A stretch of DNA of 41,226 nucleotides from Synergistaceae bacterium (lineage in GTDB: Bacteria; Synergistota; Synergistia; Synergistales; Synergistaceae): assembly GCA_031273805.1 (NCBI GenBank), contig JAISRE010000025.1, forward strand, positions 1 through 41,226, written 5' to 3'. The notes beneath the pieces were generated by a model. It did no database searches. It was not told the DNA's origin and was given only the letters and a program-made list of their open reading frames with translations. This document shows positions 691-9,670 of the stretch, piece after piece. How positions within the stretch are numbered: position 1 is the first letter of the stretch; every line of letters starts with the position of its first letter. The translations under genes were made by a program, and so were the position numbers.

Positions 691-725
691 GGGACATTTT
701 TAGTGCGCGGCGTGACAAACGCTCA

Positions 726-751
726 GGCCCTCTCAAAGAGGGTCTTTTTTT
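726..751 (+). terminator. Expression-platform terminator of the left B12 riboswitch
   Basis: CCCTCT and AGAGGG form a six-pair stem around a three-base loop, flanked by further weak pairs, and a run of seven T follows at 745-751. Its place between the aptamer and the downstream genes makes it the likely regulated terminator. Confidence 0.85.
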
Positions 752-831
752 ATTGCCTTCAGTCTCTTCTCGTAAAAAATGACCCATTGCCGATTGTGAA
801 GAAAGAGGTGATTTGACGGGAGTGGTGAAAT

Positions 832-1210
832 TTGTGTGTTGTGCGCCATCGGTATGAGTGTGGACTATGGTGGGCGCCATCCTTGTCCGAAGGCATAGGG
901 GCAAATCAGTATGTCTGGACGGATGAGTCGGGAAATGTGTTCGGCCCCGACGATACAGTCGAAGCCGGGCGCAGCTACTATCTCAGCGTTGCCATTCAGG
1001 ACAATAGCAGCTATGACTGGGATGATACATGATACACCCGGCGCTATTCTCGACCCGATGGCTCTGGTGGAGGTAACGGAGCAGAACGGAGCGGGTGGCA
1101 ATAGCAATGATGGATGCAACTCCGGGCTCGGTGGACAGAGCGGTGTATTAATAGCGGCAGCGCTCCTGGCAGTGTGCGGAAAACGCATGCGTTATAGCGC
1201 GGGCAGGTAA
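832..1210 (+). pseudogene. Frameshifted Synergist-CTERM surface protein gene
   Basis: Two frames join into one plausible protein end. The first frame gives a clean beta-type stretch (TVEAGRSYYLSVAIQDNSS) and hits TGA at 1030-1032. The second frame takes over near 1035, giving PGAILDPMALVEVTEQNGAG and then a Gly/Asn-rich linker, the motif DGCNSG, a hydrophobic stretch and a basic end at 1210. That tail matches the sorting signals of the genes at 1309 and 5207. The repeat GATACATGATACA at the junction may mark the mutation. No signal peptide or credible start is present, so the 5' end is lost too. The remnant lies right after the left B12 riboswitch, so it was probably a B12-regulated surface protein. 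Confidence 0.7.
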
Positions 1211-1308: not shown

Positions 1309-2994
1309 ATGAAAAATTCATTATTTAGTATCAAAATTAAGACCTTTATTGTGATGGCCTCTATTGCGGCGAGCGTTTTCACCGCAGGCATTGTTTCAGC
1401 GGCGAGCATAGAGGCCTCGTTTCGCGTCACTCGCGGAGCGGGACTCAGGGTTTTCGAGAAATCGATGGATGAGACCGGACGGATTCCGCATTTCGAGGCG
1501 TTTAAAGAATTCACTCTCACCAAGCTCACCAAGAGCGAGGGTGAGGTCTATGACACATATACCGGAACAATCGACGCCCCGACTGATTTTTTCCACTATG
1601 TTACCGGCGGTGGCGCGACAGGTTTTGTGAAGCAGGCCAAGGTTCTTAACGTCAGCGTATCGAGGGATATATCTATAGAAATAGACGCGACTCCGTTAGT
1701 TGAGGGGCGCAGGGAGGAGAACGGCTTCAGGGCGGACGACGTTTATCTGAATGTGAACGACGCTCAATACCTGCTGCTGGAGCCAAACGAGTCGTTTAAT
1801 CTAATCCCGACCCGGGTATGGCAGGCAATGGAGGGGGATACTGAAAACTACTTCATCGAGCCGGACTATGAGGTCGAGGTTATAGGTGGAGAGAGCGTGC
1901 TGAGCTCAACCTGGGGCGGCGCTCCCGGCCTCGAGTACGCGCGTCTTGCCGCGCTGAGCGAGGGAACTGCAATAGTGAAGATAACATACGGTCCGATTCT
2001 GCGCGAAATGAGCCAGGGCGGCGAGCCCAGGTACTTCAACGCCATAGACCCGATAAACACCGGGATCGTAGTGGTGAGCGTGGTTTCGGACAAGTATGGC
2101 GCTGACACCTCGAAAATCAGGACGAATATAGAGGCGCGCGAGTACGACACGGTGTACTTCGACAGGGCCAAGACCGACCACGCCGAGTACTCGTTCAAGC
2201 CAACGGTCGATGGCGATGATCCGGAGATCTCCGTGCGCGCTCACAAACCCATTCATGAGGGAGGCGCAACGTGGGGCGAGGCCTGGTCCGACGGGGTGGA
2301 GGGCGGCGACGGTTCATTCACGGTCGACCTGTATGAGGGCAGGAACATCATCGAGGTTTCGTCGTCCGGCTTAGGCTTCAAGGAGTACCACGTGATAACC
2401 GCGAAAGGTATCGGGATTACGCAGAGCAGGAAGGAGAACGGAGATGTGGAGATAAACTTCGACGGCATCAAGACTCCACTCGAAAAGATGGCCGGTCTTT
2501 ATAACCCGGGCTATGGAGGAACGTGCTACGTCCTCTACAAACGATCCGACGGAGGCGTTGTAAGCGGCGACGAGGGAGTTCAGTACAACCTTGCCGTGAA
2601 AAACACGCTGACTGTCACTCCCCCGCAGAGCGGATCGCTGACGCTGTCGGGCGGAGTGATAAACTGCCCGCACCTGGGAGATCCGCTTGGGAGCCACAGG
2701 ACCAAGATCGGGCATGAAAAGATATACAGAAATTTCGAAGCGCAGAGGATTGATGGCTTCTACAGCGTAATGCCGGATATCACTGTCACGGGGAGCGGTG
2801 AAGAGGAAGAGGAAGAGGAAGGCGAAGAGGAAGGCGAAGAGGAAGAGGAAGAGGAAGAGGAAGAGGAAGGCGAAGGCGAAGGCGAAGAGGCGTCATCAGG
2901 CGGCGGGTGTGACACAGGCGTCCCTGCGTTTGGCGCGATTGCGGCGATGCTCTGCCTGGGAGTGCGGTATGGACGCAGGGCTTTGATTAAGTGA
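1309..2994 (+). CDS. B12-regulated surface protein with Synergist-CTERM tail
   Basis: The 561-residue product has a signal peptide (MKNSLFSIKIKT, then a hydrophobic core ending near VSAAS). A beta-rich ectodomain with Ig-like spacing covers about residues 35-490. Next come an acidic Glu/Gly linker (about 494-528) and a tail with GGGC at 531-534, CDTG, a hydrophobic stretch and a basic end. Such a tail directs export and anchoring at the cell surface, as in other -CTERM families. The ATG has a strong AAGGAGGG site at 1295-1302. No catalytic motif is recognised. The gene lies on the same strand as, and downstream of, the left B12 riboswitch, with only a decayed relative between, so a role in cobalamin or corrinoid capture is the best inference. 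A generic surface-layer or adhesion protein is the alternative. Confidence 0.9.
   Translation: MKNSLFSIKIKTFIVMASIAASVFTAGIVSAASIEASFRVTRGAGLRVFEKSMDETGRIPHFEAFKEFTLTKLTKSEGEVYDTYTGTIDAPTDFFHYVTGGGATGFVKQAKVLNVSVSRDISIEIDATPLVEGRREENGFRADDVYLNVNDAQYLLLEPNESFNLIPTRVWQAMEGDTENYFIEPDYEVEVIGGESVLSSTWGGAPGLEYARLAALSEGTAIVKITYGPILREMSQGGEPRYFNAIDPINTGIVVVSVVSDKYGADTSKIRTNIEAREYDTVYFDRAKTDHAEYSFKPTVDGDDPEISVRAHKPIHEGGATWGEAWSDGVEGGDGSFTVDLYEGRNIIEVSSSGLGFKEYHVITAKGIGITQSRKENGDVEINFDGIKTPLEKMAGLYNPGYGGTCYVLYKRSDGGVVSGDEGVQYNLAVKNTLTVTPPQSGSLTLSGGVINCPHLGDPLGSHRTKIGHEKIYRNFEAQRIDGFYSVMPDITVTGSGEEEEEEEGEEEGEEEEEEEEEEEGEGEGEEASSGGGCDTGVPAFGAIAAMLCLGVRYGRRALIK
2800..2889 (+). repeat. Hexanucleotide microsatellite coding a Glu/Gly linker
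   Basis: About 15 units of GAAGAG or GAAGGC (with GAG/GGC order varying) run in frame inside the surface protein gene, just before the sorting tail. The unit is six bases, so gain or loss of units changes linker length without shifting the frame. Confidence 0.9.
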
Positions 2995-3162: not shown

Positions 3163-5220
3163 TCAAAACCTCATGTTGAGCGTCATGTAATATGTGCGTC
3201 CCTCTATCGGGTACCACAAAACCCTTGTCGGTCCGTCGAGTCCGCCGCTTGGGTGCATACGCCAGCCATCAGCGTCGTTGAATACGTCGTCCACGCCGAA
3301 GGCTAGCTGGGAGGTTGGGCTCAAATCGTATTTGACGCCTATGTTGAACAGGTTGCGGGCGTTGAACAAAACGGTCTCCTCCCTGTCCGCGTAGTTTTCG
3401 CCGACATACTGATACTCTATGAACGCCGAAGCTCGTTCGAACTTCCTCGTGAGGCGAGCGGTTCCGCTCCACTCAGGGCGGTTTGGCAGGGCATTGCCGT
3501 AGAAGCGGGACGAACCCTCCGCTGGAGATTTATTTATCCCCTCCATCCAGGTTGCGGATAAAGAGAGATTCCACTTATCCCAGTCCAGGCCGGTCTCCAA
3601 TTCCACTCCCTTCACCTCTGAGTCGGCTATGTTGGCGTATCTCGCGAACCTCTGCCCCTCCATGAGCAGTTCTATAAGATAATCGGTCTCGCGCCAGAAG
3701 CCCGAGAGTGACGCGTTTGCCCGGGCGCCGCCAAACGCGGTTCCGTTCCATATTATCCCTAAATCGAACTGAGTGCCGGTCTCCCATCTGAGATCGTCCA
3801 TCGGCTCTATTATAAACGCCCCGTCGCCGTATTTTTCGTATAGATTCGGGGCGCGGGCGTATGTTCCATAGGCGCTCTTGAGCATCAGGTTTGGTGAAAA
3901 TTCTTTCGTCAGGGCTATCTGCCATGTGAAGTGATCCTCGCCGTCGATACTGTGCCAGCGAATGGACGGAGTCGCCAGGAATGTGGCCATTCTGTCAAGA
4001 GCTATGGTGTCCTGAAGGTTGATATCCCAACCGGTCTGGCTGTAGTCCGAAATACCGCCCAGGTATTTGAAGGCCATGTCTCCGTCGACTTTCAGACTCT
4101 CGTCCGAGTACTCCGCCAGGAACTCCAGCAGGTGACGCTCTCCGATCGGCATGTTCGCGTTGATCGATACACCCAGCTTTGCGGCGTCGTACTCGCTTTC
4201 GTCCACGTCGCCGTGGCCTATTAAGCTTGCGGCGCCTCCGCGTCTGCTGTTGTAATATCTCTCTTGCGCGGTGTACATCAGCTCGACTGACCATTCGACA
4301 GGGCCTGAGATTTGAGTGCGGGAGAGTGAAAAATCCCATCTGTCAGTGTCCTGAATCGGCCAGGGGCGAGGGGCTTCCCAGGGCTTGTCGAGTGTGGGGC
4401 CGATCAGCGCGAGGTCGCGATTCCTTCGCACCCACGACGCGCGCGCGCGCCAATGATCGTCCTGCCACTTGAGCAGCAGGTCCATGTTTTCAAAGCCGTT
4501 GCCCTGCCTCCTGCCCTTGTAGTCATCCGTGTAGTTGTAGGCGGTGGCGTTATCGTTCCAGTATTCGAAGTCTCCGTCATACGTCTCGTATCCAAACGAG
4601 CCGAAGAATTTTCCGTTCCACATCTCATTGGAGTATGAGAGAGAGCCTTTATACCTGCCAAACGAGCCAATTCCGAGCGATAAGTTCATCTCAGGTTTCT
4701 GAGGCGATTTCGTGACGACGTTTATGACTCCGCCCATCGCCTGAGCGCCAAATCGAGTTGGAATATAGCCGCGGTAGACCTCTATTTTTTCAACGTTGTC
4801 GACTGGTATTGCGGACAGATCCACGGCAGCCTCGCTCTGCAGGTTCATCAGAATGCCGTCCACGTAAACCGCAACCTGAGACGAGGTGCTGCCGCGCACC
4901 GACGCGACCGCGTAGCCGTTGCGCCCCCTGAGGCGGATAACGCGAAGCCCCGGAACCTCCTCCAGGAGGTCCGGGAGTGTGCGCTGCTCGCCGGATTTTT
5001 CGTCTGGCCTGATGACTGTAACCATTCCAGGGGAGAGATATTTGTCCTCGTCCTCGTCGTATATCATCGACCCCTCGACCAACTCCTCCGGCAGCGTCAC
5101 CGCCGCATGTGCTGCGGTGGAGATGATAAATGCCAAAATGAGCGCTCCGAGGATGAGCTTATAAAAGGGCGAGCAATATGCCCGCCCTTCAAGAGCCTCA
5201 ATAAACTTAAGCTGTCTCAT
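3163..5220 (-). CDS. btuB: BtuB-like TonB-dependent outer membrane receptor
   Basis: The 685-residue product has a signal peptide whose hydrophobic core is LILGALILAFIIS, ending near AAHA. A plug domain follows: LPDLLEEVPGLRVIRLRGRN, VRGSTSSQVAVYVDGILMN, then RYGAQAMGG-like and INVVTKSP. A long beta-barrel ends in Phe, as expected for BAM-inserted proteins. The size and plug motifs fit vitamin-transport receptors of the BtuB type. The start is ATG 5220, which overlaps the stop of the upstream propeller gene by 14 bp. No good ribosome site is visible, so it may be translationally coupled. The n-region is unusually long (about 21 residues) and a terminator-like hairpin lies inside it. The gene shares the right B12 riboswitch, which supports cobalamin as substrate; other corrinoids are possible. 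The ATP-driven inner-membrane partner is not in the window. Confidence 0.88.
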   Translation of the reverse strand: MRQLKFIEALEGRAYCSPFYKLILGALILAFIISTAAHAAVTLPEELVEGSMIYDEDEDKYLSPGMVTVIRPDEKSGEQRTLPDLLEEVPGLRVIRLRGRNGYAVASVRGSTSSQVAVYVDGILMNLQSEAAVDLSAIPVDNVEKIEVYRGYIPTRFGAQAMGGVINVVTKSPQKPEMNLSLGIGSFGRYKGSLSYSNEMWNGKFFGSFGYETYDGDFEYWNDNATAYNYTDDYKGRRQGNGFENMDLLLKWQDDHWRARASWVRRNRDLALIGPTLDKPWEAPRPWPIQDTDRWDFSLSRTQISGPVEWSVELMYTAQERYYNSRRGGAASLIGHGDVDESEYDAAKLGVSINANMPIGERHLLEFLAEYSDESLKVDGDMAFKYLGGISDYSQTGWDINLQDTIALDRMATFLATPSIRWHSIDGEDHFTWQIALTKEFSPNLMLKSAYGTYARAPNLYEKYGDGAFIIEPMDDLRWETGTQFDLGIIWNGTAFGGARANASLSGFWRETDYLIELLMEGQRFARYANIADSEVKGVELETGLDWDKWNLSLSATWMEGINKSPAEGSSRFYGNALPNRPEWSGTARLTRKFERASAFIEYQYVGENYADREETVLFNARNLFNIGVKYDLSPTSQLAFGVDDVFNDADGWRMHPSGGLDGPTRVLWYPIEGRTYYMTLNMRF
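5161..5189 (-). terminator. Attenuator-like hairpin at the start of the receptor gene
   Basis: In - strand RNA, AAGGGCGGGC pairs with GCUCGCCCUU (ten pairs, one G-U) around the loop AUAUU and is followed by UUAU. It lies just after the stop of the propeller gene and within the first 20 codons of the receptor frame. It could lower receptor transcription relative to the propeller gene. The U tract is short. Confidence 0.5.
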
Positions 5221-6562
5221 TCGCGGAGGCCGTCTTTGACCAGCTGACGAACCTGCTGAACTTGCCCGAAATGCCGAACGCCAAAAGCGCGCATAGCGGC
5301 AGTAATGAGCCTGTTCCCGAGTCACAGCCTCCGCCTCCGCCTCCGCTGTTTCCGCCATTACCGTTATCATCAGGTTTTGTGCCTGGGTCATCAGGGTTCG
5401 GGTCTGGATCCGGGTTTGTTGCAATTCCTGAGTTCCAGATGTCAATAGAGTATGCGTCGCCGCCGAGTTCGAGCGGGGTGAATTTTCTTATCACGGCGCC
5501 TCTCTTGTCACGCGCCTCGATGCCGATCCCCCCCTCCAGCCAGAGTATCTCCAGTGCCTCGTCGTAGCGAACCAGCCAGCCGACGCCGGGGTTTTTTGTC
5601 AGCGCCGGGGCCAGGGTTCCTATATCCCCTCTCGAAAGTTTGTCGGTCGTGGTGACGTACAGTACCGGTTTATAGCTCCAGCTGTCGTCGGGGTCGTAGC
5701 CGCCGACGATGACGAACGCCGTTCCGTCTTTCGCTATGGAGATGCTGGCAGCTCCCGACGGAAATGTTATCGCGGATATCTTGTTGATGTCTATAACCTT
5801 TTCCGACGTCATGGAAGCCAGGTCCACCTCCCAGATGTCCCCCCACAGGCCTGCGCCCAACATGCCGCCCTGGCACGCGACGTACGCCTTGCCGTCATAG
5901 ATGGCCATTTCGAACGGATTTTTGCCTACTTTAGCCGAGCGCAGCGCCTTGAGGTCCGCGTCGAACTCCGTCACCTCACCCTGCTCATGGTTGAAAGCGC
6001 CGTCCCACGCTCCGTTCAGCGCGTACACTTTGTCGTTCCACAATACAACTCCCTGTGTTTTTTTTGGCTTACCGGATACGGGAGAGTACTGATGACTCCT
6101 GTCGGTGTTTCCATTCAGTCCGCTCAATGGTATGCGGGCAATCTGACCGGATATATCTCCAACACCTGTCTCGTATGTATCCTGCAGCGCGAGATAGAGA
6201 TTTTTCCCGTCGCTTGCGACCCCGTGAAGATTTCTCCCCCACTTTGTCGTATTTGCCACGGGCGTGGTCCAGTTCTTGAAATCGTATACGGACACCACGT
6301 CGTTGGCGCCGCTGTACTGGAACTCTCGTACCACCAGCTTGTCCGCGCCGTTCTGATCGAGGAATGTGCAGCCCCAGGCGTCCCCGCCCAGCCCCACCAG
6401 GACCTTCGGCGTTACAGTGAAACTGCCATTTGAGTTCCGCGTTATAAGCCCGACGGAACCCGCGACGTAGTCCGATACGGCGTAGAATAAGTCCGCCGAC
6501 GCCTGAGCGCTCCAGAGCGCAGTGAGAACCGCGAGCAAAACAAATACCCTTAACTTTTTCAC
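5207..6562 (-). CDS. Beta-propeller-like surface protein with Synergist-CTERM tail, BtuG-like role
   Basis: The start is GTG 6562, with an AGGAG site 11 bases upstream; the product is 451 residues. The signal peptide is VKKLRVFVLLAVLTALWSA, ending ASA. The body (about 25-375) has repeated blade-like units: GKNLYLALQD, NDKVYALNG, DGKAYVACQG and DGTAFVIVGG precede hydrophobic strands and loops such as SGQIARIPL, GEVTEFDA and GDIWEVDL. A Pro/Asp/Gly linker follows, then a six-Gly run and C413 in GCDSG, a hydrophobic stretch and a basic end. There is no lipobox. It is the first gene after the right B12 riboswitch and overlaps the BtuB-like gene. Bacteroidetes BtuG is a surface beta-propeller that binds B12 beside BtuB, so I infer the same role here. 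No homology to BtuG was tested, and blade number is not fixed. Confidence 0.85.
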   Translation of the reverse strand: MKKLRVFVLLAVLTALWSAQASADLFYAVSDYVAGSVGLITRNSNGSFTVTPKVLVGLGGDAWGCTFLDQNGADKLVVREFQYSGANDVVSVYDFKNWTTPVANTTKWGRNLHGVASDGKNLYLALQDTYETGVGDISGQIARIPLSGLNGNTDRSHQYSPVSGKPKKTQGVVLWNDKVYALNGAWDGAFNHEQGEVTEFDADLKALRSAKVGKNPFEMAIYDGKAYVACQGGMLGAGLWGDIWEVDLASMTSEKVIDINKISAITFPSGAASISIAKDGTAFVIVGGYDPDDSWSYKPVLYVTTTDKLSRGDIGTLAPALTKNPGVGWLVRYDEALEILWLEGGIGIEARDKRGAVIRKFTPLELGGDAYSIDIWNSGIATNPDPDPNPDDPGTKPDDNGNGGNSGGGGGGCDSGTGSLLPLCALLAFGISGKFSRFVSWSKTASANETA

Positions 6563-6630
6563 CTTAAAACAACTCCTTTCAGAATTTGACAGGATACCGA
6601 AAATATATATATACGAGACGGCCAGAGCTA

Positions 6631-6669
6631 TGAGTTCAAGGCCGCGCTGGAGTGGAAGCCTTGAACTCA
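6631..6669 (-). repeat. 12-bp inverted repeat in the propeller gene leader
   Basis: TGAGTTCAAGGC (6631-6642) and GCCTTGAACTCA (6658-6669) pair perfectly around a 15-base loop. It lies between the riboswitch terminator and the GTG start at 6562. No T run follows, so it is not an obvious terminator; it may protect the processed mRNA end. Confidence 0.75.
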
Positions 6670-6756
6670 CAACTGAAATCATTACCTGGCGCGTCTGCGG
6701 AATGAAGCGGCGTGTGCTATCGCGCACACCGCCATACCGAGCCAAAATATTGACGC

Positions 6757-6787
6757 AAAAAAAGAGACCCTCATAGACGAAGGTCTC
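6757..6787 (-). terminator. Expression-platform terminator of the right B12 riboswitch
   Basis: Read on the - strand, GAGACC and GGTCTC form the stem, followed by seven T (the A run at 6757-6763). It sits directly downstream of the aptamer and upstream of the propeller gene, so it is the likely regulated terminator. Confidence 0.85.
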
Positions 6788-6869
6788 CCGGATAATTCAA
6801 TCGCGTACGCTAACGTATGAATATGTCATATACCGCGAGTGGATAATAAATGCAGGCTGCGCCCTTCGC

Positions 6870-7045
6870 GCACACACCGGCAGGTTTCCTGACTCGTGTT
6901 CTCTCTACTCCCGCACCTTCCCAGCGCAAAAGGTCCTCATGCACGCCTTTTGTTATTTGCCAGTGGCTTAATTACACGGTTTCGTCACACTTACAGTGGC
7001 GAGGGCCGTTCCGGCTTAACCGGATTCCCTGTACCGGAATTGCTG
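6870..7045 (-). promoter_or_regulatory. Cobalamin (B12) riboswitch, right copy
   Basis: On the - strand the core reads GGGAATCCGGTTAAGCCGG, then AACGGCCCTCGCCACTGTAA. The B12 box GAGTCAGGAAACCTGCCGG lies near 6876-6895. This is a textbook aptamer. A promoter lies just upstream and an intrinsic terminator just downstream, so cobalamin should switch off the propeller-receptor operon. Ends are approximate. Confidence 0.96.
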
Positions 7046-7065
7046 AATTATTAAATTGTAAGAGT

Positions 7066-7094
7066 ATTATAAGCGTTTATCAAATCTTTGTCCA
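7066..7094 (-). promoter_or_regulatory. Promoter of the right B12 riboswitch operon
   Basis: On the - strand, TGGACA (5 of 6 to the sigma-70 -35 consensus) is followed after exactly 17 bases by TATAAT. Transcription would start near 7058, just before the aptamer. Confidence 0.8.
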
Positions 7095-7149: not shown

Positions 7150-8646
7150 TTACCTCATAGAGCCAAGCAGCCTCAACCTCTCATGCCATGAAAAGGCTTC
7201 GTTTAAGAGATGAGGCTCATGTCCCTTATTGATTTCCGCTCTTTTTTTGTAATCTCGAAGCAGCTCTTTATAATCATGGTGGGAGCACTTTTCTATTATT
7301 TCATTGGATCTCTCCCTAGGGGACAGGCCTCTTAAATCGGCTGCGCCGTATTCAGTGACTATAATATCCACGTCATGTTCGGTGTGGTCTATATGAGAGC
7401 AGAACGGCACAATCTTGGATATTTTACCTCCAGAGGCGGTTGAAGGGCACAAGAATATGGTCAGATAGGCGTTTCTGGCGTAGTCTCCGGATCCTCCTAT
7501 GCCGTTGAGCATCCTGGTTCCCCCAGCCATTGTTGAATTTACATGTCCGTAAATATCGACCTCTAACGCTGTATTCATTGCGATAACCCCGAGACGCCGG
7601 ATAACTTCAGGGTTGTTGCTTATCTCCTGAGGGCGCAGCACTATGCGATTTTTGAACTCCTCGAGGCGATGATAGTATTTCGCGGCGCCGTCGGGGCTGG
7701 GAGTGAGCGCGGCGCTTGACGCGAACGAGATTTTCCCGCTGTCGAGAAGATCGAAAACGGCATCCTGAATAACCTCAGTGTATACTTTAAGATTATCGGA
7801 AGGCCATTCAGCAAGCCCGGCCAACACGGCGTTCGCTATATTGCCGACGCCGGATTGGAGCGGGAGGAGCTCTTTAGGCAGCTTGCCGGATTTTACCTCA
7901 GCGCTCAGGAAATCGAGAAGATTGTGCGAAATCCTGCCGCTCACGTCGTCAACCGGCGCCAATGGTCTCTGCGCGTCTTTGACGTCTGAATGCACTATCG
8001 CCACGATTTTCTCCGGGGAACAATGAAGATATGGGCTGCCTATACGATCCTGTACGTTTGTTATCGGAATGGGTTTTCTGTGGGGAGGATTTTCAGGCGA
8101 ATATATGTCATGTATGCCATCGAGTCCCTCCGGCTGAGCGGTATTTATTTCAACTATCACTTTATCCGCACTTTCGACAAATACGTTGGAATTGCCGACG
8201 GCGGACGTCAGCACTATATCTCCCTCGTTTGTGATACGGAGAGCTTCAATAATGGCGATGTGGAAACTGCCGTAAAAACCATACCTTATGTTCTGAGCGT
8301 TATGAGAGAGGTGAATGTCGGCAAATTGCACTGTGCCGGCGTTGATCTCCCTGCGAATGTCGTCGTTAGTCTGATATGGGTAGCGCCTTTTTATACAACC
8401 TGTGCGAGTGAGCTCTCCATCCAGTTCCGGGCCGACAGACGCCCCGGACCAAACAGTTACGGGGATTGGGCCATCGGATTCGGCCCTTTTCGCCAATGCC
8501 GTCGGTACGGCCTTAGGGTACCCGGAAGGCGTAAAACCGCTGCACCCCAATGTCATACCCGGCTCGATAATAAGAGCCGCTTCCTCTGCCGTGGTGATCT
8601 TATCGCGCAAGGTTCTATTTCCAACAAGTTCTTCGATGCTGTTCAT
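7150..8646 (-). CDS. Acetyl-CoA hydrolase/transferase family (succinyl-CoA:acetate CoA-transferase type)
   Basis: The 498-residue product is full length for the family. Near the N-terminus is PGMTLGCSGFTPSGYPKAVP, typical of the first CoA-transferase domain. The second domain has VYTEVIQD with the Glu expected to form the CoA-thioester intermediate. GGSGDYARNAYLTIF and EYGAADLRGLSPRER near the C-terminus are also typical. Such enzymes move CoA between acetate and succinate, propionate or butyrate and help recover energy in fermentation; the substrate pair cannot be told here. The ATG at 8646 has an AGGAAAGGA site upstream. It is not linked to the B12 operon: the riboswitch promoter at 7066-7094 follows it on the same strand. 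Confidence 0.93.
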   Translation of the reverse strand: MNSIEELVGNRTLRDKITTAEEAALIIEPGMTLGCSGFTPSGYPKAVPTALAKRAESDGPIPVTVWSGASVGPELDGELTRTGCIKRRYPYQTNDDIRREINAGTVQFADIHLSHNAQNIRYGFYGSFHIAIIEALRITNEGDIVLTSAVGNSNVFVESADKVIVEINTAQPEGLDGIHDIYSPENPPHRKPIPITNVQDRIGSPYLHCSPEKIVAIVHSDVKDAQRPLAPVDDVSGRISHNLLDFLSAEVKSGKLPKELLPLQSGVGNIANAVLAGLAEWPSDNLKVYTEVIQDAVFDLLDSGKISFASSAALTPSPDGAAKYYHRLEEFKNRIVLRPQEISNNPEVIRRLGVIAMNTALEVDIYGHVNSTMAGGTRMLNGIGGSGDYARNAYLTIFLCPSTASGGKISKIVPFCSHIDHTEHDVDIIVTEYGAADLRGLSPRERSNEIIEKCSHHDYKELLRDYKKRAEINKGHEPHLLNEAFSWHERLRLLGSMR

Positions 8647-9118: not shown

Positions 9119-9235
9119 GTCACAAAGCTCGATGGGGGAATATATTCATAAGCGCGGATACGTACATTTGTCGTGTGGCGCGGTTAGGCGCCACTTATAA
9201 TGTACTGCGAAATTATTACTGGGAGGTATGGAGTT

Positions 9236-9670
9236 TTGACAAAAGAAAGACGCAGGGGATTTACGCTGGTCGAGATAATGGTTGTGGTTGTTATAATAGG
9301 TCTCCTCGCGGCGCTGGTGGGGCCTCGCCTGATAGGACAGTCGGAGTCGGCAAAGATAACCGCTACAAAAGCTCAGATCAACAATCTTCAGCAATCGCTC
9401 GAGCTATTTCACATCAACAACGGCTTTTTTCCCACAACTGAGCAGGGTTTGGAGGCTCTGATAGAAAAACCGACAATTCCGCCGGAGCCCAAGAACTTTC
9501 AGAGGGGCGGCTATATCAATGCCAAGTCGGTTCCGAAGGATCCGTGGGGCAATGAATATCTGTATATATGTCCGGGTGAGAACGGCGACTACGATATAAT
9601 ATCTTACGGCGCAGACGGCAGAGAGGGAGGAGAAGAGGCTAACGCCGATATCACCAATTGGGATAATTAA
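9236..9670 (+). CDS. gspG: Type II secretion major pseudopilin GspG
   Basis: The start is TTG 9236, with GGGAGG about nine bases upstream; the product is 144 residues. The prepilin signature is RRRGFTLVE, cut after Gly by the prepilin peptidase, followed by the hydrophobic spine IMVVVVIIGLLAALVGP. The C-terminal half has the GspG pattern DPWGNEYLYICPGENGDYD, then YGADGREGGE, which matches the calcium-binding loop of the family. Pseudopilins of this type form the short pilus of type II secretion. No other secretion gene is next to it, so its machinery is encoded elsewhere or it serves another system. It is probably cotranscribed with the deaminase 41 bp downstream. Confidence 0.9.
   Translation: MTKERRRGFTLVEIMVVVVIIGLLAALVGPRLIGQSESAKITATKAQINNLQQSLELFHINNGFFPTTEQGLEALIEKPTIPPEPKNFQRGGYINAKSVPKDPWGNEYLYICPGENGDYDIISYGADGREGGEEANADITNWDN

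Follow-up and report, generated by a model that had tools for sequence, protein, structure and literature searches.

Organization of the operon

This report concerns a putative two-gene operon for corrinoid uptake in a Synergistaceae bacterium (assembly GCA_031273805.1; 2.7 Mb in 172 contigs), in which the gene for an exported protein, P0001, precedes and overlaps the gene for a TonB-dependent receptor, P0002. The window, that is the whole stretch of DNA analyzed, is the entire contig C155 (41,226 bases), and all parts of the operon lie on its minus strand, where an initial annotation made from the DNA letters had placed them:

7066..7094, minus strand: predicted sigma-70-like promoter TGGACA-N17-TATAAT (consensus scan 11/12), directly upstream of the riboswitch
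6862..7053, minus strand: cobalamin riboswitch aptamer RF00174 (cmscan 79.4 bits, full length 1-189, E 4e-18)
6762..6789, minus strand: intrinsic terminator, the probable expression platform of the riboswitch (12-pair stem and T run; dominant hairpin on folding)
5207..6562, minus strand: P0001, exported beta-propeller protein and predicted corrinoid-capture lid (451 aa, GTG start)
5228..5335 (approximate limits), minus strand: Synerg-CTERM-like sorting tail of P0001 (GGGGGGCDSG...SGKFSRF), supported by cysteine conservation and the TIGR04564 matches of relatives
3163..5220, minus strand: P0002, BtuB-like TonB-dependent outer-membrane receptor (685 aa, ATG start at 5220, 14-nt overlap with the end of P0001)

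These features bear out two claims of the initial annotation, namely that a promoter, one B12 riboswitch and a terminator precede the operon, and that an exported, propeller-like gene overlaps a BtuB-like receptor gene. The gathering score of RF00174 is 31.5 bits, and the genome holds only six such sites in 2.7 Mb, so the presence of one at this operon is well above chance. The six precede btuFDC (contig C13), a corrin synthesis operon whose genes we read as CbiC, CbiK and CbiD (C154), an anaerobic ribonucleotide reductase gene (C35), a second propeller-receptor pair (C164) and two units in the window. The GTG start of P0001 at 6562 is preceded, about 10 nt upstream, by AAAGGAG. The leader between terminator and start codon also contains a perfect 12-bp inverted repeat (TGAGTTCAAGGC/GCCTTGAACTCA; 6631-6669) with a 15-nt loop, which is absent from the other loci compared and is not a dispersed repeat among them.

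A predicted beta-propeller beside a BtuB-like receptor

P0001 comprises a Sec-type signal (residues 1-23, ending in AQASA before DL), a propeller (residues ~24-380), a linker (residues ~381-412), and Cys413 followed by a hydrophobic and basic tail. It has no lipobox—its first cysteine is residue 65—and the lipobox pattern was likewise not found in the N-terminal parts of its relatives. It matches no Pfam or NCBIfam family. In particular PF16819, the BtuG family (DUF5074), has no match in P0001 or elsewhere in this genome, is approached by one of 33 relatives (E 0.09), and exceeds its cut-off once across the 188 Synergistota genomes that make up our phylum set. On its structural model, nevertheless, P0001 is a beta-propeller. 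Single-sequence AlphaFold of the full-length protein gave a pLDDT of 36.6, which was cured by trimming signal and tail (leaving residues 22-392) and adding two relatives; from these three sequences only, the ectodomain was modeled as a propeller with pLDDT 75.4 and pTM 0.83. When the model was compared by Foldseek with 350,542 PDB chains, the first of 879 matches was BtuG1 with bound cyanocobalamin (8ptd, E 2.9e-9, TM 0.61/0.65), at 12% identity in the structural alignment, and the top 50 included BtuG3 of BtuB3G3 (8p97_B, TM 0.59/0.65) and XusB (E 1e-7). A profile of 33 relatives searched against the PDB points the same way, all matches at E < 0.001 being propellers—designed kelch propellers, KLHL20, KLHDC10 and Bacteroides thetaiotaomicron BtuG1 (8ptd, 4e-8; 8blw_B, 4e-7) among them—and aligning this profile with itself revealed internal repeats at offsets of ~57 and ~104 residues (E 5e-6). 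The propeller fold proposed from the letters alone is thus upheld. Two asparagines at equivalent motif positions in two blades, N111 and N215, are kept in 31/33 and 33/33 relatives, respectively, and the ectodomains are all acidic (net charge -7 to -48).

P0002 has the plug and barrel of E. coli BtuB (PF07715, 5e-18, and PF00593, 8.6e-31, both over cut-off). Its best NCBIfam model is TIGR01779, TonB-B12 (E 8e-45), and its best PDB relatives are E. coli BtuB. It differs from E. coli BtuB in scoring below the equivalog cut-off of this model and in having an adjacent propeller, which E. coli btuB lacks (operon comparison in PMC10404256). There are exactly two receptors of the BtuB-like kind in the genome, and both are accompanied by a propeller.

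Conservation of the pair across Synergistota

A search with P0001 matched 71 of the 188 genomes, some by the tail only. Loci were selected on the propeller only; of their 47 testable members, 44 have a P0002-like receptor as the immediate neighbor in the same orientation, with the propeller gene first in 31 and the receptor gene first in 13. The reverse search started from receptors at E < 1e-60. Of these 77 receptors, 64 have a propeller of the family no more than 1.5 kb away in the same orientation (42 propeller-first, 22 receptor-first), and 56 genomes carry both; the exceptions to pairing include contig ends. Since loci were picked by the propeller alone and the receptor-based search agrees, the pairing is not an artefact of locus choice. 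In at least 31 of the 55 testable loci, an RF00174 site precedes the pair at a distance of 800 bp or less; ten further loci have one at a greater distance upstream, again on the same strand. The expectation that other Synergistota would keep such genes together is therefore confirmed from both directions, and the pair usually sits under a B12 riboswitch. Propeller and receptor distances correlate over 24 pairs (r 0.77), a value to which we attach little weight because shared species history alone can produce it. Searches of viral contigs gave no relatives.

Genes for the remaining steps of B12 import recur around the pair. In one locus (L055), a riboswitch oriented divergently to the pair precedes genes for BtuF, BtuD, BtuC, an ExbB/TolQ-type protein and a TonB family protein, and btuD and btuC, often with btuF and ExbB, lie near the pair in L058, L060, L063-L067, L079, L081, L083 and L088. 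In the genome studied here, an RF00174 site followed by btuFDC is found on contig C13. Two neighborhoods are of interest in themselves. A succinate CoA-transferase gene (TIGR03458) adjoins the operon (window 7150-8646, minus strand), and one also lies near the homologous pair of the locus just described (L055:2458-3966); the propionate pathway to which this enzyme can belong uses a B12 enzyme. In another genome (G039), a single cobalamin riboswitch at one locus (L154, G039:C1:1336000-1355500) stands before two family propellers, a BtuB-like receptor and further large surface proteins; that genome has six propellers, and stretches of it are masked as N.

The C-terminal tail and a probable route to the surface

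In the tail of P0001, a glycine-rich stretch leads to Cys413, after which come a hydrophobic segment and then basic residues. Cys413 is invariant in 33/33 aligned relatives, Gly411 and Gly412 are each kept in more than 90%, and 23/33 relatives match the Synerg-CTERM model TIGR04564 at E up to 1. The only CPBP protease of the genome is MrtS (NF040589, 215.8 bits versus a cut-off of 130), which exceeds its cut-off in 126 of the 188 genomes. The tail thus resembles those of the Synerg-CTERM/MrtS and MYXO-CTERM/MrtX systems (PMC11980579 for the latter), with the same tripartite build of invariant cysteine, hydrophobic stretch and basic end. One difference is that no link to a nutrient function is known for the established sorting systems. 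The suggestion that the protein uses an anchor other than a lipobox was therefore well founded as regards the missing lipobox, the GCDSG tail, its invariant cysteine and the presence of MrtS. It fell short in one respect: the tail of P0001 itself stays below the cut-off of TIGR04564.

In the MYXO-CTERM pathway, proteins reach the cell surface through the action of the protease MrtX and type II secretion (PMC11980579). The genome studied here encodes two secretins, and a lone gene for the type II secretion major pseudopilin GspG lies near the operon (window 9200-9670, plus strand; TIGR01710, 179 bits); this GspG possibly takes part in the export of tail-anchored surface proteins. By analogy with the MYXO-CTERM precedent, and given MrtS, GspG and the two secretins, surface exposure of P0001 is likely. 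A location in the inner membrane, with the tail holding the propeller so that it faces the periplasm, would agree with the fact that no paper we found shows surface export of Synerg-CTERM proteins, but it is unlikely in view of the delivery of MYXO-CTERM proteins to the surface and of the export genes just listed.

A second riboswitch unit and P0003

The window contains a second cobalamin riboswitch, absent from the account given in the initial annotation, in a unit on the plus strand whose last gene converges on that of P0002:

537..689, plus strand: second cobalamin riboswitch aptamer RF00174 (cmscan 52.1 bits, full length)
725..751, plus strand: hairpin resembling a terminator, with a T run, downstream of the second riboswitch
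829..1207, plus strand: frameshifted remnant of a Synerg-CTERM surface protein, covering its C-terminal part in two frames (by similarity and tail)
1309..2994, plus strand: P0003, exported surface protein with a GGGCDTG tail (561 aa; family A4)

In the remnant, frame 1 matches proteins of loci L140, L040 and L142 (E 5e-13 to 1e-5) and frame 2 has a GCNSG tail. Relatives of P0003 stand under RF00174 in three loci (L145, L142 and L144), and in three others they are fused behind a propeller (L040, L042, and L041, which is cut by a contig end). The family member in the first of these loci (L145:1772-4156) is a 795-aa protein under a cobalamin riboswitch, on a contig with three RF00174 aptamers within 7.5 kb, and has a match above cut-off (9e-7) to DUF4430, a transcobalamin-like domain. 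An assignment of P0003 itself to the DUF4465/BtuH type was rejected, as it has no Pfam or PDB match. The relatives under RF00174, the propeller fusions, the DUF4430 domain of one relative and the precedent of BtuG1, in which a propeller is joined to an extra B12-binding domain (BtuH) (PMC10404256), make P0003 a good candidate for an auxiliary corrinoid-binding protein.

Discussion

The most important conclusion that we draw, to which we assign a probability of about 0.8, is that P0001 and P0002 work like BtuG and BtuB, as a two-part gate for corrinoid uptake at the cell surface. BtuG has been reported to occur exclusively in Bacteroidetes, and those who discovered it raised the question of why no other phylum had added such a part (PMC6143338). 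Our analysis suggests that this B12-capturing lid probably also exists in Synergistota, with a different membrane anchor. A literature search outside most subscription journals found no paper on a Synergistota analog of BtuG.

BtuG binds corrinoids with high affinity, through residues such as Trp194, Trp272 and Tyr316 in BtuG2, and forms a stable complex with BtuB. The parallels with the BtuG-BtuB systems of Bacteroides (PMC6143338, PMC10404256) are several: an exported propeller and a BtuB-type TonB receptor encoded side by side and preceded by a cobalamin riboswitch, an acidic ectodomain whose closest solved structure is BtuG1 with cyanocobalamin, and multidomain propellers, with BtuH in BtuG1 and a P0003-like domain in the Synergistota relatives. 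The differences are equally clear, since P0001 belongs to another phylum, has no PF16819 match and only 12% identity to BtuG1, and in Synergistota the gene order varies. Moreover, BtuG is anchored by an N-terminal lipoprotein cysteine whereas the anchor cysteine of P0001 is C terminal, in a Synerg-CTERM-like tail, and hence the hinge of the P0001 lid would sit at the opposite end from that of BtuG. XusB of Bacteroides, another structural match, is also a surface propeller that binds a nutrient complex. It differs in that its ligand is a ferric siderophore and its anchor that of a lipoprotein; we know of no link between XusB and a B12 riboswitch.

Several observations weigh against this interpretation. 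P0001 cannot be filed as BtuG, because it has neither PF16819 nor a lipobox. Unrelated propellers are among its best PDB structural matches in Foldseek, at similar E-values, and designed kelch propellers score level with BtuG1 in the profile search, so these comparisons establish the fold and the resemblance to BtuG but not the ligand. Three of the 47 testable propellers have no adjacent receptor (L059, L073 and L087). Two more family propellers in the same genome, with Synerg-CTERM-like tails (contigs C141 and C84; L152:4621-5907 and L153:7459-8811), have neither receptor nor riboswitch, and the propeller family is therefore wider than B12. Propellers are also much less conserved than receptors, with a mean identity of 28% versus 49% over 24 pairs; when the two pairs of this genome are compared, the values are 30% and 65%. 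This faster divergence could mean that the corrinoids differ, that arms races are under way at the surface, or that the role is a looser one. The proposal in the initial annotation—a BtuG-BtuB-like division of labor with another anchor—is partly supported, by the propeller fold, the conserved pairing, the tail cysteine and MrtS; P0001 is not a member of the BtuG family by sequence, having neither PF16819 nor a lipobox. The term BtuG-like therefore holds for the architecture of P0001 and describes its probable role, not its sequence family.

The divergence of the propellers, unusual for a constrained ligand site, would fit a propeller that does not itself bind corrinoids and is instead a surface or periplasmic partner that helps to assemble, stabilize or gate the BtuB-like receptor. 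The structural matches do include scaffolding propellers such as BamB (4imm). However, the best of them is BtuG1 in complex with cyanocobalamin, the two blade asparagines are almost always kept, and the acidic ectodomains recall BtuG, which is acidic with a negative binding face (PMC10404256, PMC6143338), so that we consider such a non-binding partner improbable. A target other than B12, such as a corrinoid-binding protein or a different cobalt complex, with B12 acting only as the regulator, is very unlikely for the pair. Its ligand is deduced from regulation and neighbors, and P0002, at 153.5 bits, is far below the TIGR01779 B12-receptor equivalog cut-off of 599.7, but among NCBIfam models TonB-B12 still scores best for this receptor, its closest relative in the PDB is E. 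coli BtuB, and btuFDC lies beside the pair in several genomes.

If P0001 and P0002 do form a BtuG-BtuB-like gate, its operation can be pictured as follows. When cellular cobalamin is low, the riboswitch would let transcription pass the terminator, and both genes would be expressed. P0001 would be exported by Sec, its C-terminal cysteine-plus-helix tail would be processed by MrtS, and the propeller would end up tethered by its C terminus to the outer membrane, probably via the type II secretion system. There it would capture corrinoids and hand them over to P0002, capping this receptor as BtuG caps BtuB. P0002, a BtuB-type receptor, would be driven by TonB, and import would be finished by periplasmic BtuF and inner-membrane BtuCD, which are encoded elsewhere under their own riboswitch.

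How such a lid came about in Synergistota is a separate matter. It is possible, and we suggest it tentatively, that it arose or was rebuilt independently in this phylum, from another surface propeller there and not from BtuG, with an MrtS-processed C-terminal tether and a hinge at the opposite end, and with a second surface corrinoid protein as its partner—the P0003 family, whose members are joined to the propeller as one protein in some species.

Synergistota live in guts and anaerobic consortia. If our interpretation is correct, B12 capture lids would be a wider strategy, which can be built with unrelated anchors, and Synerg-CTERM surface proteins would have a role in nutrient acquisition. 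It would also make the choice between common descent and convergence testable by structures.

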